Source: Thermaerobacter subterraneus DSM 13965 | Lineage (GTDB): Bacteria; Bacillota; Sulfobacillia; Thermaerobacterales; Thermaerobacteraceae | Direction: 5' to 3' | Length of the DNA stretch: 64,000 nucleotides | NCBI RefSeq assembly: GCF_000183545.2 | Contig: NZ_JH976535.1 | Coordinates: 1,861,837-1,925,836 of the forward strand | In this document: piece after piece, positions 22,203 to 29,510 of the stretch | Position numbering within the stretch: position 1 is the stretch's first letter | Layout of the letters: every line of letters starts with the position of its first letter | Translations under genes and position numbers: made by a program | The notes under the pieces: model-generated | Seen by the model: the letters and a program-made list of their open reading frames with translations, nothing else | The model's database searches: none | What the model was told of the DNA's origin: nothing

Positions 22203-22231
22203 TTGACGGCCCTGCAGGAGGTGCCTATCTT
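22203..22231 (+). promoter_or_regulatory. Sigma-A promoter of amtB
   Basis: TTGACG at 22203-22208, 17-bp spacer, TATCTT at 22226-22231. It predicts a leader of about 184 bases before the amtB ATG, containing an antiterminator-like element and a terminator. Confidence 0.8.
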
Positions 22232-22295: not shown

Positions 22296-22328
22296 GGACA
22301 GCGGCGTCCGCCACGGGCAACGGAGCCC
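22296..22328 (+). promoter_or_regulatory. Tandem hexaloop element, predicted ANTAR target (amtB leader)
   Basis: Stem-loop 1 is GGAC-AGCGGC-GTCC (22296-22309). Stem-loop 2 is GGGC-AACGGA-GCCC (22315-22328). Both loops have six bases with A at position 1 and G at position 4, which is the published recognition rule for ANTAR antiterminators. A five-base linker separates them. The 3' arm of stem-loop 2 (22325-22328) is also part of the 5' arm of the terminator that follows, so protein-stabilised stem-loop 2 would prevent termination. Confidence 0.82.
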
Positions 22329-22357
22329 ACCTGCAGCCGCAGCGCTGCGGGTGGGCT
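22324..22357 (+). terminator. Intrinsic terminator in amtB leader (attenuator)
   Basis: A 14-bp stem AGCCCACCTGCAGC / GCTGCGGGTGGGCT (one wobble pair) is followed by TTTGCTTGTTG. It stands about 65 bases before the amtB start codon, so it should stop transcription unless the preceding hexaloop structure forms. Confidence 0.85.
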
Positions 22358-22421
22358 TTGCTTGTTGTCGCGGTCCCTGCTGCTGTGCTCGGCTTACAGC
22401 TCGTGGGAGGGAGTGAGGGTC

Positions 22422-23753
22422 ATGCCCGAGGCCGTCAGTGCCGACGCGGTGGCGGTTGCCCTCAACACGGCGTGGACGTTGTTGGCCGCCTTTCTGGTCT
22501 TTTTCATGCAGGCGGGTTTTGCACTGGTCGAAGCGGGCTTCACGCGCGCCAAGAACGCGGCCAACATCGTCCTGAAGAACCTGATGGACTTCGCCGTCGC
22601 CTCGCTGGCTTACTGGGCCATCGGTTTCGCCCTGATGTTCGGAGCCGACGCCGCCGGGCTGGTCGGGACGACGGGCTGGTTCAGCCAGGAGGCGGGCTTC
22701 GGCCACCTTGACCTGTCGCTGCCTCTGTTGGCGTTCCTCATGTTCCAGACGGTCTTTGCCGGTACTTCGGCCACCATCGTCTCGGGCGCCATGGCCGAAC
22801 GGACGAAGTTCGCCTCCTACCTGGTCTTCAGCGCGGTCATGTCCATGCTGATCTACCCGGTGGTCGGGCACTGGATCTGGGGCGGGGGATGGCTCGCCCA
22901 ACTCGGCATGCTGGACTTCGCGGGCTCGACGGTGGTGCATTCCGTCGGTGCGTGGGCGGCGCTGGCCGGCCTCATCCTGCTGGGTCCCCGGTTGGGGCGC
23001 TTCGGCCCTGACGGGCGGCCCCACAAGATTCGCGGTCACAGCGTCACCCTCGCGGCCCTGGGCGTCTTCATCCTCTGGTTCGGCTGGTTCGGCTTCAACC
23101 CCGGCAGCACCCTGGCTGCCACCGATGCCAACATCGCCCGCATCGCCGTGACCACCAACCTGGGGGCGGCGGCCGGTGCCCTGGCGGCCTTGCTGGCGGC
23201 GTGGCTCAAGCAGGGCAAGCCCGACGTGGAGGCCTCCCTCAACGGCGCCCTGGGCGGGCTGGTGGCCATCACCGCCGGAACGGCCTGGGTGAGCCCTGCC
23301 AGCTCGATCGTCATCGGCGGCGTGGGCGGCCTCGCCGTCCTCGCAGGAACGGCCCTTCTGGAGCGGTGGCACGTGGACGATGCGGTCGGCGCCATCCCCG
23401 TCCATGGTGCCGCCGGCGTCTGGGGCACCCTGGCGGTCGGCCTCTTCCATGAGGAACAGGGCCTGCTCTTCGGTGGCGGCAGCCAGCTGCTGGTCGCCCA
23501 GTTCATCGGGGTGGTCGCGGTGGCCGTGTGGACCTTCGCCGCCTCCTACGTCACATTCGCCCTGATCAAGGCCACCATGGGCCTGCGGGTGACGCCCCAG
23601 GAAGAAGAGCACGGCCTCGACCTGGGCGAGCACGACACCGTGGCGTATCCCGAGTTTGTCGCCGCCGCCGCGACGGCGCAAGAGGTGGCGCCCCTGCCGA
23701 GCACACCCGTGATGGCACCGGCTCCGGCGTCCGCCCGTGGCGGCGGCGACTGA
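22422..23753 (+). CDS. amtB: Ammonium transporter
   Basis: This 443-residue Amt-family membrane channel carries ammonium/ammonia across the cytoplasmic membrane. About eleven hydrophobic segments are visible, with the family signatures MQAGFALVEAGFTRAKNA, GTSATIVSGAMAERTKF, DFAGSTVVHSVGAWAAL and HGAAGVWGTLAVGLF. The conserved pore histidines occur in VVHSVG and IPVHGAAG. The ~50-residue cytoplasmic tail is Ala/Pro-rich. ATG 22422 follows GGGAGGGAG. No glnK (PII) gene follows; a terminator and the convergent ANTAR gene lie downstream. Expression is probably controlled by promoter-level activation and by transcription attenuation in the leader. Confidence 0.96.
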   Translation: MPEAVSADAVAVALNTAWTLLAAFLVFFMQAGFALVEAGFTRAKNAANIVLKNLMDFAVASLAYWAIGFALMFGADAAGLVGTTGWFSQEAGFGHLDLSLPLLAFLMFQTVFAGTSATIVSGAMAERTKFASYLVFSAVMSMLIYPVVGHWIWGGGWLAQLGMLDFAGSTVVHSVGAWAALAGLILLGPRLGRFGPDGRPHKIRGHSVTLAALGVFILWFGWFGFNPGSTLAATDANIARIAVTTNLGAAAGALAALLAAWLKQGKPDVEASLNGALGGLVAITAGTAWVSPASSIVIGGVGGLAVLAGTALLERWHVDDAVGAIPVHGAAGVWGTLAVGLFHEEQGLLFGGGSQLLVAQFIGVVAVAVWTFAASYVTFALIKATMGLRVTPQEEEHGLDLGEHDTVAYPEFVAAAATAQEVAPLPSTPVMAPAPASARGGGD

Positions 23754-23825: not shown

Positions 23826-24449
23826 CTACCGCCGCCCGCGTCCGGAGCGGCGGGACCCGGTCTCGTCCAGGGCGGTGAACTCGATGATGCTCTGCGCAAT
23901 CTCGCGCAAGGGCTTGCGCTGGCGCATGGCCGTGTCGCGCAGCCGCTTGTACGCCTCGGATTCGGCCAGGTCGAACCGGTCCATGAGGATGCCCTTGGCC
24001 CGTTCGATGATCTTCCGGTCCTCCAGCTTCCGCATCGCTTCGTCCACCATCTGCCGGGCCTGCTGCAGGCGCCCGGCGCTGCCCATCAGCGCCCGGCAGA
24101 CGGCCACCAGCTGCCACTTGGGGGCGTCGGCGGGGAGCAACGCCCAGACCGGCCAATCCTCCGAGGCCAGATGCTGCCACAATCCCTCGGGCTCCGGGTC
24201 CCCAGGATCCACCATCCACAGCACGGGCCTGCCCGTCACCCGGCCCAGGGTCCGGGTGCGCTCGGCGGGGCGCTCGATGCCCGCGGGACGCATGACGAAC
24301 AGGTCGGCTTGCTGGCGGGCAAGCCACTGTTCCGACGGCCACCCCACCTGCACCAGGATGGGCCACCCCGTATCCAGGAGGGCCCCGGGCAAGCGGCCCC
24401 CGGGGCCTGCGGGGTCGAAGCCGAAGACGATGACTTCCGGCTTGTTCAT
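23826..24449 (-). CDS. ANTAR-domain RNA-binding antitermination regulator
   Basis: This 207-residue protein has a receiver-like N-terminal half (~1-120) and a C-terminal ANTAR domain (~140-195; LEDRKIIERAKGILMDRFDLAESEAYKRLRDTAMRQRKPLREIAQSI is split by helices as usual). ANTAR proteins bind paired hexaloop RNA hairpins and prevent termination. The receiver half lacks an obvious phospho-acceptor: where DxxLLD is expected it reads ADLFVMRPAG, so it resembles an AmiR-type pseudo-receiver. ATG 24449 follows GGGAGG at eight bases. It lies between amtB and glnA, both of which have matching RNA targets, so it is the obvious candidate regulator. Its activating signal is unknown. Confidence 0.9.
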   Translation of the reverse strand: MNKPEVIVFGFDPAGPGGRLPGALLDTGWPILVQVGWPSEQWLARQQADLFVMRPAGIERPAERTRTLGRVTGRPVLWMVDPGDPEPEGLWQHLASEDWPVWALLPADAPKWQLVAVCRALMGSAGRLQQARQMVDEAMRKLEDRKIIERAKGILMDRFDLAESEAYKRLRDTAMRQRKPLREIAQSIIEFTALDETGSRRSGRGRR

Positions 24450-24960: not shown

Positions 24961-26295
24961 TCAATACTTCGCCAGATACTCCTGGAGCTCCCACGGCGAG
25001 ATCTGGGTGCGGTAGACGTCCCATTCGATCTTCTTCGCCTCCAGGTAGCGGGAGGCCACGTGGCTGCCCAGCGCCTCCAGGATCAGCGGATCCTGCTCCA
25101 GGGCCTGGATGGCTTCGGCCAGCGACCCGGGCAGGCTGGCGATGCCCAGTTCGTCCCGCTCGGCCTGGGGCATGTGGTAGATGTTGCCCTCCACGGGATC
25201 GGGCGGGGTCAGGCGCCGCTTGATGCCGTCCAGGCCCGCCTTGAGGATCACGGCCAGGGCCAGGTAGGGGTTGCAGGAGGGATCGGGGGAGCGCAGCTCG
25301 ATGCGGGTGCTGAGCCCGCGCTTGGCCGGGATGCGGATCATGGGACTGCGGTTGCGGTACGACCAGGCCACGTACACCGGCGCCTCATACCCCGGCACCA
25401 GCCGCTTGTAGGAGTTGACCAGCGGGTTCGTCACCGCGGTGATGGCCCGCGCGTGCTCCATGATGCCGGCGATGTACTGCTTGCAGACTTCGCTCAGCCG
25501 GTCCGGGGTATTGGGGTCGTAGAAGGCGTTCTGGTCGCCGCGGAAGAGGGACTGGTGCAGGTGCATGCCCGAGCCGTTCTCGCCGTAGAGGGGCTTGGGC
25601 ATGAAGGTGGCGTGCAGGCCGTGCTGCAGGGCGATGGTACGCACCACGCTGCGGAAGGTGGCGATGTTGTCCGCGGTGGTCACGGCGTCGGCGTACTTGA
25701 AGTCGATCTCGTGCTGGGACGGCGCCACCTCGTGGTGGGCGGCCTCGATCTCGAAGCCCATCTCCTGCAGGGTGAGGACGATCTCCGCCCGGACCTCCTC
25801 GCCCTTGTCCACCGGGGCCAGGTCGAAGTAGCCGGCGTGGTCCAGGGTCGCGGGCCGGGCCTGCTCCGCCGCCGCCCGGTCGAACAGGAAGAACTCCGGC
25901 TCGGGGCCGACGTTCATCACGTACCCCATCTCCGCCGCCTCGGCCACCACCCGCTTGAGCACGTACCGCGGGTCGCCCTCGAAGGGCGTGCCGTCGGGGT
26001 TGTAGACGTCGCAGATCAGGCGCGCGGTGCGCCGGCCCTCGCGGGTCTTCCAGGGCAGGATGACGAAGGTCGCCGGGTCCGGCCGCAGGTACATGTCCGA
26101 CTCCTCGATCCGGACGAACCCCTCGATGGACGAGCCGTCGAACATCAGCTCGCCCGCCAGCGCCTTGTCGATCTGCTCCGCCGGGATCTCCACGTGCTTG
26201 ACCGTGCCCAGGATGTCGGTGAACTGCAGGCTGATGGTGCCGATGTTCATGTCGCGGATGGCGGCCTTGATGTCGCCAGGGGACATCTTCTTCAC
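24961..26295 (-). CDS. glnA: Glutamine synthetase type I
   Basis: This 444-residue cytoplasmic enzyme makes glutamine from glutamate, ammonia and ATP as a dodecamer. Signatures include [59 protein letters not shown] and the active-site loop region [15 protein letters not shown]. The C-terminal [16 protein letters not shown] is present. The length is typical of the GlnA form found in Bacillus, which is feedback-controlled and chaperones GlnR. No adenylylation Tyr motif is evident. GTG 26295 was chosen because AGAGGAGG lies seven bases upstream. It is the second gene of a glnR-glnA operon whose leader carries an ANTAR-type attenuator. Confidence 0.97.
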
Positions 26296-26345: not shown

Positions 26346-26660
26346 TCAGCGTCCGACGACGGTCCGTGGCGATGCCGTGCTGCGACCCTTGTTGTTTACC
26401 CATTGCCCCCCATTTTCCCGGGCGCCCCGCTGCGGCTGCAGCCCTGCGCCGTCAGCGGCCAGTATGACCCGCATGGTGTGAACGTTGTGCCCCTGTTGCA
26501 GGAGCCACCGGATGCGACGCAGTTGCCGGATGTCCCTGGCCGTGAGCAGGCGTTGTCCGGAGGGACTGCGCGCAAGGCGGACCAAGCCCTTGGCCTCGTA
26601 GTACCGGATTTGCCGCTGGGTCAGTCCCGTTAGCCGCTCCGCTGCGCCCATGGTAAACAC
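26346..26660 (-). CDS. glnR: MerR-family regulator, GlnR type
   Basis: This 104-residue protein has an N-terminal MerR helix-turn-helix ([48 protein letters not shown]). Together with its position 50 bases upstream of glnA, this matches GlnR, which represses glnRA when nitrogen is plentiful in Bacillus. The C-terminal tail is short and shares little with known autoinhibitory tails. GTG 26660 follows AGGAGGTG; an internal ATG three codons on is an alternative start. A classical GlnR box is not apparent near the promoter, so the binding site in this organism is uncertain. Confidence 0.88.
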
Positions 26661-26687
26661 GTTCCCTCACCTCCTCGAAACGACAAA

Positions 26688-26714
26688 GCCCCTGCAGGTC
26701 GAACCTGCAGGGGC
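26688..26714 (-). terminator. Intrinsic terminator in glnR-glnA leader (attenuator)
   Basis: A perfect 11-bp stem GCCCCTGCAGG / CCTGCAGGGGC around TTCGA is followed on the minus strand by TTTGTCGTTT. It lies only ~30 bases before the glnR start codon. Confidence 0.9.
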
Positions 26715-26754
26715 GCCGTTGCCCACCGGAATGCCGCCACGCCGTTGTGGCAGC
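26711..26754 (-). promoter_or_regulatory. Tandem hexaloop element, predicted ANTAR target (glnR leader)
   Basis: On the minus strand, stem-loop 1 is GCTGCCAC-AACGGC-GTGGCGGC (26733-26754) and stem-loop 2 is GGGC-AACGGC-GCCC (26711-26724), with an eight-base linker. Both loops are AACGGC, with A at position 1 and G at position 4. The last four bases of stem-loop 2 (26711-26714) are the first four of the terminator stem, so the two folds exclude each other. The layout matches the amtB leader. Confidence 0.88.
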
Positions 26755-26773
26755 CGCGTCAAGATCTGGTGCC

Positions 26774-26802
26774 AGTATATGCACGGGCGGGGGCGGTGTC
26801 AA
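26774..26802 (-). promoter_or_regulatory. Sigma-A promoter of glnR-glnA
   Basis: On the minus strand, TTGACA (26797-26802), 17-bp spacer and TATACT (26774-26779) give a near-consensus promoter. The transcript would start near 26767, directly before the hexaloop element. Confidence 0.92.
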
Positions 26803-26919: not shown

Positions 26920-26994
26920 GCTCGCCGCGGCCGCCGTCGTGCACGGTCCCATGGCCCCGTTGACAGAGGCTAGGGTCCGTCGCGGTGGCCAATG

Positions 26995-27042
26995 CCGTGT
27001 CAGTTGCCGTGTCAGTTACCGTGTCAGTTACCGTGTCCGCGT
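26995..27042. repeat. 12-bp tandem repeats across the kimA stop codon
   Basis: CCGTGTCAGTTA-type units occur at 26995, 27007, 27019 and 27031 (first and last degenerate). They run from outside the gene, through the stop codon, into the His/Gly/Asn-coding tail. Confidence 0.85.
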
Positions 27043-29291
27043 CCGTGGCCATGGCCATGGCCGTTGCCGTGCCCGTTGCCGTGGCCGTTGCCGTTGCCCA
27101 GGATGTCAACGTAGAACGGGATCAGCGTGATCAGCACCCCGTCGGTGTAGACCAGCTCGCGCACGATCTGATTCGCCGTCCCGTTGTGCAGGTACGCGTC
27201 GAAGGGATCGTTCGTCACGATCACCGGCACCAGGAGGTTGATCACGCGGCCCGGTTGCTCGGCCAGGCGCCGGTCCAGGTACTCCCGCAGGGGGTCTACC
27301 AGGCTGCGGTAGGGCGATTCCAGGATCTCCAGCGGAATCCCTCCGGCCCGGTCGGGCCGCCATTCCCGCCGCAGCTGCTGGGCATAGGCCGGGTCGACCG
27401 CCACGTGGACGGCAACCACGTCGCCGCCCAGCCGCCGCGCCACCCGCGCCGCGTGGCGGATCACCGGCGACAGGGCCCCCACCGTCAGCACCACCAGCAT
27501 GCGGCCGGGGTCGTCGATGCGCATGTGCTCGATGTCCAGGGCCGCGATCCGATCGAGGAACCGGCGATAGTAGTTGCGTACCGAAAGGAAGTACCCCACC
27601 AGCAGGGGGACCAGCAGCACCGCCACCCAGCCGCCCAGCAGGAACTTGGTGACGATCACCACGGCCAGGACCACGGCGCAGGCCACGGCCCCCAGGCCGT
27701 TGATGGCCAGGGGCCAGAGCAGCGGCAGGACCGCGGGACCTGCGCTGCGGCCCCCGGCCGTGCCCCCGCCGGCCCGCGGCTGGGCAAGGGCCGCCTGTCG
27801 CGCCGGCTCCTCCGCCAGGGCTGCCTTTCCCGCTTGCTCCTCCGGGAGCGCCGCCTTCCGCGCCCGCTCCTCCGCCGGGGCCGCCTTTCCCGCTCGCTCC
27901 TCCGTAAGCGCCGCCCGGCGCGCCCGTTCCTCCGCAAGCGCCGTCTTCCGCGCCCGTTCCTCCGCCAGCGCCGCCCGACGGGCCCGCATCTCCCGCAGCC
28001 AGTGCACCACCATGCCCGTCTGGGACAGGGTGAAGGCGGTGAAGACTCCCACCGCATAGAGCGGGATCAGGCGGTGGGTGCTGCCGCGGAACAGGACCAG
28101 CAGCAGGGACGACGCCAGGGCCAGCAGGGCAATGCCCAGGTTGTGCACCAGCGTGTCACCAAGATTGGCAAAGCGCCGCGACACGTACCCGTCCCGGGCC
28201 AGGATGGCCAGCAGCCGGGGAAAGCCGGCGAAGGCGGTGTTGGCCGCCAGGAGCAGGATCACCATGGTGCCCACCACGACGGCGTAATACATCACACCGC
28301 CGCCAAAGACCGCCCGCGCCATCTGACTGAGGACGGTCTCCCCCTCCCGGGGCGCCACGTGCAGCCCGGTGGCCAGGATCATCAGCCCGGCAAACAGGAC
28401 CGCCAGCAGGGTGCGGCCCAGGGCCATGGTCCGGGCCGCGTTGCGGGCCTCGGGCTGGCGGAAGGCCTTGACGCCGTTGGCCACCGCCTCCAGCCCCGTC
28501 AGGGTCGCCGTGCCGGACGCGAAAGCCCGCAGCAGGAGGAACAGGCTGACACCCGGGCCGGCCCACGGCAGGTGGGCGAATCGGAAGCCCTGGGCCGGGT
28601 CGACCCCCGGATGCCAGGCCCCGCGGGCCAGCTGAACCAGCCCCGCCGCCACCAGCGCGCCGGTGACCAGGACGAACCCGTACACCGGGATGGCCACAGC
28701 GGTGCCCGACTCGCGGACACCCCGGAGGTTGAGCCACGCGATCACCAGGACCGCCACCACCGCCAGGGCCGTCTCGTGGCCCCGCAGGGCGGGCAGCCCC
28801 GCCGCCAGGGATCCGACGCCCGCAGCCACGGACACCGCCACGGTAAGCAGGTAGTCGACCAGCAGCGCCGCGGCCGCCACCAGCCCCGCGATCTCGCCCA
28901 GGTTCTCGCGGGCCACGGCATAGGCGCCGCCTCCGGCCGGGTAGGCATAGATGATCTGAATGTAGGAAGCGGAGACGATGAGGATCAGCAGCACGATGGC
29001 GGCCGCTACCGAGAGACCGTAGGCCATGCCGGCCGTCCCGGCGGCCGCCAGGACGAAGAGGATCTCCTCGGGACCGTATCCCACCGATGAGAGAGCGTCA
29101 CTGAAGAACACGGCCAGGCCCGTGAGAACCGGAAGCCGCTCGGCCTGCTCCTCATCGGTGCGCCTTGGGCGCCCGAACACGATCCGCTTGAAACGCCGGA
29201 TCAGCTCGGGACCCGGCGCCTGCCAGCGGCCATTCCCGCTCCCGGACCGGGCCGGAGCGGCCGGCGCCGATTTTCGATCCATCCCGCCCAT
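27024..29291 (-). CDS. kimA: KimA-type potassium importer (APC superfamily)
   Basis: This 755-residue membrane protein closely follows KimA (YdaO), a high-affinity K+/H+ symporter. Signatures are LPVLTGLAVFFSDALSSVGYGPEEIL, YPAGGGAYAVARENLGE and FASGTATLTGLEAVANGV. About twelve membrane segments precede a C-terminal cytoplasmic USP-like domain that binds c-di-AMP in B. subtilis. Two oddities stand out: six to seven decapeptide repeats (AALAEERARK-like, nt 27780-27990) inside a cytoplasmic loop, and an NGHG/HGHG tail. A c-di-AMP riboswitch precedes it. The start is ambiguous: ATG 29291 has AGGAGG only three bases away, ATG 29282 twelve bases away. Confidence 0.92.
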   Translation of the reverse strand: MGGMDRKSAPAAPARSGSGNGRWQAPGPELIRRFKRIVFGRPRRTDEEQAERLPVLTGLAVFFSDALSSVGYGPEEILFVLAAAGTAGMAYGLSVAAAIVLLILIVSASYIQIIYAYPAGGGAYAVARENLGEIAGLVAAAALLVDYLLTVAVSVAAGVGSLAAGLPALRGHETALAVVAVLVIAWLNLRGVRESGTAVAIPVYGFVLVTGALVAAGLVQLARGAWHPGVDPAQGFRFAHLPWAGPGVSLFLLLRAFASGTATLTGLEAVANGVKAFRQPEARNAARTMALGRTLLAVLFAGLMILATGLHVAPREGETVLSQMARAVFGGGVMYYAVVVGTMVILLLAANTAFAGFPRLLAILARDGYVSRRFANLGDTLVHNLGIALLALASSLLLVLFRGSTHRLIPLYAVGVFTAFTLSQTGMVVHWLREMRARRAALAEERARKTALAEERARRAALTEERAGKAAPAEERARKAALPEEQAGKAALAEEPARQAALAQPRAGGGTAGGRSAGPAVLPLLWPLAINGLGAVACAVVLAVVIVTKFLLGGWVAVLLVPLLVGYFLSVRNYYRRFLDRIAALDIEHMRIDDPGRMLVVLTVGALSPVIRHAARVARRLGGDVVAVHVAVDPAYAQQLRREWRPDRAGGIPLEILESPYRSLVDPLREYLDRRLAEQPGRVINLLVPVIVTNDPFDAYLHNGTANQIVRELVYTDGVLITLIPFYVDILGNGNGHGNGHGNGHGHGHGRGHGN

Positions 29292-29306
29292 GCGCCTCCT
29301 GCAGCC

Positions 29307-29440
29307 ACGCCTGCGAGGTTAGCTGCCGGGTTCGGGCGGCCACAGTCGCCCTACCGGTCCCGGCCGGCCCGCAACTTCGGCCGGGCACCGGATTCACCCC
29401 AGAGGTGGGTCCCCCGCTCCCCGGTTCGGGGATTCGGCGT
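29307..29440 (-). ncRNA. c-di-AMP riboswitch (ydaO-yuaA type)
   Basis: On the minus strand the conserved blocks appear in order: AACGCCGAA, GAGCGGGGGACCCA, TGGGGTGAATCC, GGTAGGGCGAC, GCCCGAACCCGGCAGC and TAACCTCGCAGGCGT. ACGCC at the 5' side pairs with GGCGT at the 3' end to close P1. Such riboswitches turn genes off when c-di-AMP is high, and kimA is a known target. The 3' end is only ~15 bases from the start codon, so control could act on translation or through a terminator I did not find. Confidence 0.95.
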
Positions 29441-29510
29441 TCGGTTGGGGGCTCAAGCGAGCCCCATACCACCGAGTCTGAACCTGCAGGGGCGCCGCTT
29501 GTCAAGAGGG

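Follow-up and report, generated by a model that had tools for sequence, protein, structure and literature searches.

A very probable ANTAR-target antitermination switch in the glnR-glnA leader of Thermaerobacter subterraneus

Results

The leader of the glnR-glnA operon of Thermaerobacter subterraneus is, with high probability, an antitermination switch of the kind targeted by ANTAR proteins. The analysis covered a stretch of 64,000 nucleotides (called the window; positions are those of the window unless a contig is named). The RNA motif recognized by the ANTAR protein EutV is a pair of small hairpins, each with a six-base loop in which position 1 is A and position 4 is G (A1 and G4), separated by a linker of about 5–12 nt, with the second hairpin (P2) overlapping a terminator (PMC3369931). 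A leader with this arrangement lies on the minus strand in front of a glnR-like gene, in a cluster with the following features:

26774..26802, minus strand: promoter, TTGACA / 17 nt / TATACT, 11 of 12 consensus bases
26733..26754, minus strand: P1 hexaloop hairpin, GCTGCCAC-AACGGC-GTGGCGGC, 8 bp including one G-U
26725..26732, minus strand: P1-P2 linker, 8 nt, variable between species by congener comparison
26711..26724, minus strand: P2 hexaloop hairpin, GGGC-AACGGC-GCCC, 4 bp
26678..26714, minus strand: intrinsic terminator, stem 26714-26688, tail TTTGTCGTTT at 26687-26678
26346..26660, minus strand: glnR-like gene for a 104-aa MerR regulator, closest to GlnR among PDB entries in its DNA-binding half
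24961..26295, minus strand: glnA, type I glutamine synthetase
23826..24449, minus strand: ANTAR antiterminator protein, 207 aa, with a receiver-like domain, a long coiled coil and an ANTAR domain

Anatomy of the glnR leader

The sequence-only reading of this DNA had described two AACGGC hexaloops on stems of 8 and 4 bp, a terminator whose 5' arm opens with the same GCCC that closes the second stem-loop, and a near-consensus promoter, and all of these elements were found again on the minus strand. The -35 hexamer starts at 26802, the -10 hexamer ends at 26774, and both are recognizable in four Thermaerobacter congeners while the sequence of the 17-nt spacer varies. The terminator stem can be drawn with 12 bp and a 3-nt loop or, as in the earlier description, with 11 bp and a 5-nt loop, and the terminator alone has a predicted energy of -24.7 kcal/mol. 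Because its 5' arm shares the GCCC with P2, the two structures are mutually exclusive. This overlap corresponds to the attenuation type of target, and the 8-nt linker falls within the range given for the motif. The folding energy of the leader was 3.9 sd lower than that of shuffled sequences. The minimum free energy fold of the whole leader prefers the terminator; since this preference is expected without protein, the fold does not serve as a test of the antiterminator.

Structured leaders with mutually exclusive hairpins before glnA could also be read as a metabolite riboswitch or a T-box governing glnA directly, without a protein, and glutamine riboswitches exist. However, an Rfam search of the window at the gathering score gave no match to a glnA riboswitch, a T-box or any other riboswitch at the glnR leader, although it did detect a c-di-AMP riboswitch nearby. 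Furthermore, only the short hairpins and loop bases are conserved, with the linker free to change, which makes direct sensing by the RNA very unlikely. Attenuation through translation of a short leader peptide was considered as well: in the window species a GTG frame (GTG GGC AAC GGC ... TGA) runs across P2 and the terminator. This frame is not conserved, with congener G001 lacking the start codon, and neither a Shine-Dalgarno sequence nor a run of regulatory codons was seen, so that we regard a leader peptide as scarcely credible.

A second copy of the switch before amtB

When the window was searched for pairs of A1/G4 hexaloop hairpins at most 14 nt apart and accompanied by a terminator, two sites emerged. 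One was the glnR leader, with loops AACGGC and AACGGC. The other, which the sequence-only reading had not mentioned, occupies 22296-22360 on the plus strand upstream of the ammonium transporter gene amtB, with loops AGCGGC and AACGGA and a linker of 5 nt:

22203..22231, plus strand: weak promoter-like site, 9 of 12 consensus bases
22296..22309, plus strand: P1, GGAC-AGCGGC-GTCC, from the hexaloop scan
22315..22328, plus strand: P2, GGGC-AACGGA-GCCC, from the hexaloop scan
22321..22360, plus strand: terminator overlapping P2, 17-bp stem followed by CTTGTTGT
22422..23753, plus strand: ammonium transporter gene amtB, convergently oriented to the ANTAR gene

The amtB leader was present in all four Thermaerobacter genomes. 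In the most distant of them its P1 loop reads GACGGC, which keeps G4 and breaks the A1 rule. With 73% G+C, hairpins form easily, and the glnR leader might accordingly be a plain terminator with accidental upstream hairpins and some constitutive read-through. In 20 shuffled windows, however, the combination of paired hexaloops and terminator did not occur once, and the repetition of the arrangement in front of amtB and its retention across species likewise argue against an accident, leaving this explanation with next to no chance of being correct.

When a covariance model of the cores was run over the 2.9 Mb genome, the amtB leader (28.8 bits) and the glnR leader (27.3 bits) were by far the best two matches, with the next site in the genome at 19.9 bits. 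Because the model was partly built from both leaders, their scores are high by construction, and the informative part is the gap between the two leaders and the rest of the genome. Further candidate targets all scored below 20 bits, and none of those inspected resembled a leader with a terminator. A scan over genome contigs yielded mostly proteobacterial relatives, along with a small number of loci linked to glnA, and added little.

Conservation of the leader in Thermaerobacter and beyond

Both P1 and P2 of the glnR leader are kept in the four Thermaerobacter genomes, while the 8-nt linker is different in each (ATTCCGGT / GGAGAAGA / AACGAAAC / AATCCGGT). In an order-level relative (G530), a dual hexaloop with terminator stands directly before glnA, which is followed by an ANTAR gene; no glnR was detectable upstream of this glnA. 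A class-level relative with 41% G+C (G013) has a dual hexaloop, a glnR fragment, glnA, an ANTAR gene and asnB. The fragment comprises about 45 codons between the ANTAR-type leader and glnA (L024 7300-7460).

Across the phylum, dual-hexaloop motifs were enriched about 20-fold around ANTAR genes and often adjoin glnA. In 56 regions around such genes (850 kb), the strict pattern was found 28 times versus a mean of 1.2 in shuffled sequences. Standard pairs made up 99.4% of the pair cells in 20 distinct cores, and 37 cells had changes on both sides, counts that are inflated because the distant members came from a scan requiring pairing. The second loop base was A in nearly all cores, though there was no selection on that base.

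One genome has the leader a further time: in T. marianensis, a 140-bp segment (G002:C1:685600-685740; L219) repeats the promoter, the entire dual-hexaloop leader and the terminator with 94% identity to that species' own glnR leader and with a P1 loop of GACGGC. It is located about 430 bp upstream of an operon for a branched-chain amino-acid-type ABC transporter, and neither the window species nor G003 has it in the orthologous upstream region.

The ANTAR protein encoded downstream of glnA

The 207-aa protein matched the ANTAR domain PF03861 with 72.2 bits (cut-off 27.3) and is encoded downstream of glnA in the same cluster as both leaders; the genome has no other clear ANTAR protein. A possible second one gave only a weak match, in a reading frame that looks non-coding. 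In EutV, RNA is contacted by R142, K143, K147, Y164 and M172 (PMC8934654). By alignment, using Y164 and M172 as anchors to infer the numbering offset, the equivalent residues are R145, K146, R150, Y167 and M175, such that only EutV K147 is replaced, by Arg. An AlphaFold2 model of the protein had a mean pLDDT of 88.8, and a fold search with it returned RNA-bound EutV, EutV and AmiR as the top solved structures.

The receiver-like domain has Arg54 in the column of the phospho-acceptor Asp54, and phosphorylation at the usual Asp is therefore impossible. In addition, a search of the genome for a PII protein found none, while the identical search was positive in 13 of 14 control genomes. The signal is thus neither classical phosphorylation at this position nor, as far as found, PII. 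The N-terminal domain contains four tryptophans (W29, W42, W99 and W102) common to Thermaerobacter and G013, and to G530 too as far as its sequence was read; they are absent from most clostridial ANTAR proteins. Possibly they form a contact site for a ligand or a protein.

Proposed mechanism and relation to known systems

For the antitermination switch, we propose the following sequence of events. Transcription of the glnR leader is expected to start near 26767, and by default the nascent RNA would form the strong terminator and stop near 26680. Under nitrogen shortage, the NitR-like ANTAR protein would become active, bind both AACGGC hexaloops and stabilize P1 and P2. With P2 held closed, the GCCC would be denied to the terminator and polymerase would proceed into glnR and glnA. 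The same protein would act in trans on the matching amtB leader, so that ammonium uptake and assimilation would be switched together. The active state is placed at nitrogen shortage by analogy with NitR, which increases GS/GOGAT expression upon N limitation (PMC6316151). The 510 nt from glnA to the ANTAR gene contained no minus-strand terminator that could be found. The ANTAR gene may therefore be transcribed together with glnA, in which case the system would amplify itself by positive feedback. Co-transcription is uncertain because of the roughly 510 nt that separate the two genes.

The mechanism itself is already known from EutV, AmiR, NasR and NitR. The eut leaders of Enterococcus faecalis (Ramesh et al. 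2012, PMC3369931; Walshe et al. 2022, PMC8934654) have the same A1/G4 hairpins, short linker and overlap of P2 with the terminator, and the Thermaerobacter partner has residues equivalent to the RNA contacts of EutV. In contrast to EutV, which is of the phosphorylated two-component type, there is no phospho-acceptor Asp in its receiver domain, and in contrast to the eut leaders, a MerR-type glnR gene lies between leader and glnA. AmiR of the Pseudomonas aeruginosa AmiR/AmiC system resembles the protein in its fold and in combining a pseudo-receiver without phospho-acceptor, a coiled coil and an ANTAR domain; however, no AmiC-like gene was seen beside the Thermaerobacter ANTAR gene, and the targets here are glnA and amtB rather than an amidase. 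Predicted ANTAR regulons including glutamine-synthesis enzymes and ammonium transporters were described for many bacteria in 2012 (PMC3369931). An experimental precedent is NitR of Clostridium saccharobutylicum, described in a review citing Stutz et al. 2007 (PMC6316151) as an ANTAR antiterminator that increases GS/GOGAT gene expression upon nitrogen limitation. Compared with NitR, the Thermaerobacter-type proteins are a divergent group, marked by the four conserved N-terminal tryptophans.

Less ordinary are that the partner has no such Asp although no PII was detected in the genome, that T. marianensis has a species-specific extra leader and that glnR is apparently losing its role inside its own operon. 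With this switch, ANTAR control of ammonium assimilation reaches a deep, thermophilic and very G+C-rich lineage. With two targets, one ANTAR protein and no detected PII, the regulon is minimal and thus a small system for asking what non-phosphorylated NitR-like proteins sense. It may also be an instance in which control at the RNA level has replaced GlnR in a glnR-glnA operon.

Does GlnR also control the operon?

The sequence-only reading had suggested that GlnR-type repression and RNA antitermination act on one operon as a double lock, with GlnR repressing initiation at the leader promoter and, in its present form, ANTAR antitermination acting downstream. The RNA half of this proposal was strongly supported by the dual hexaloops and the ANTAR protein after glnA, whereas the GlnR half was not supported. 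In favor of the latter, the operon opens with a gene for a MerR protein whose closest PDB match is GlnR, and Bacilli, where the gene order glnR-glnA and the MerR-type DNA-binding domain are the same, have a GlnR that autoregulates glnRA (PMC3412718). In Bacilli, the GlnR box lies 3-6 nt upstream of the -35 element (PMC3412718). However, the best matches to the box (TGTNA-N7-TNACA) in about 300 bp around the Thermaerobacter promoter had at least two mismatches in all four congeners. The protein differs as well: behind its MerR DNA-binding half, a tail of varying length and sequence among congeners takes the place of the C-terminal sensing domain of GlnR, and the PDB alignment stops at residue 69. 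Thus, the C-terminal domain with which GlnR contacts feedback-inhibited glutamine synthetase has no conserved counterpart in the tails of the congeners. Unlike glnRA of Bacilli, then, this operon has neither a GlnR box nor the conserved C-terminal domain, and it has an ANTAR leader and a downstream ANTAR gene. Relatives that retain the RNA switch have glnR reduced (G013) or undetected (G530).

A perfect GlnR-type box does occur elsewhere, close to a second glnR-glnA pair whose glutamine synthetase is divergent (L246 5223-7131, minus strand; G000:C1:2115222-2117130). The box, TGTCAGGGAACCTGACA, lies about 240 bp upstream of the pair at G000:C1:2117373 and occurs at the same place in the sister species G003; no exact form was found in the other two Thermaerobacter congeners. 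It is also close to a divergent gene, and either gene could be served. The lack of a box at the glnR leader promoter and the perfect box near the second pair point to two operons with two different controls rather than two controls on one operon, and we consider a double lock unlikely. Three other matches to the box were judged to be chance or element-borne: one at 579407 adjoining a transposase gene, one at 819625 within a coding gene and one at 469915 beside a tRNA gene.

A more speculative reading has only a modest probability: the Asp-less ANTAR protein might read nitrogen status directly, through a ligand or contact with glutamine synthetase, and might have taken over glnR-glnA and amtB from a decaying GlnR, with GlnR control surviving at the second pair. 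If true, nitrogen control would have passed from the DNA level to the RNA level in a lineage without detectable PII.

Two observations concern the neighborhood of the operon. A short tandem repeat, TGTCAGTTACCG, at 26990-27035, close to where an APC-family permease gene (27024-29291) ends, contains near-matches to the GlnR box, which are probably driven by the repeat. The c-di-AMP (ydaO) riboswitch, the only Rfam riboswitch or T-box match in the window (29293-29449, minus strand, 77.3 bits), directly precedes the same permease gene.
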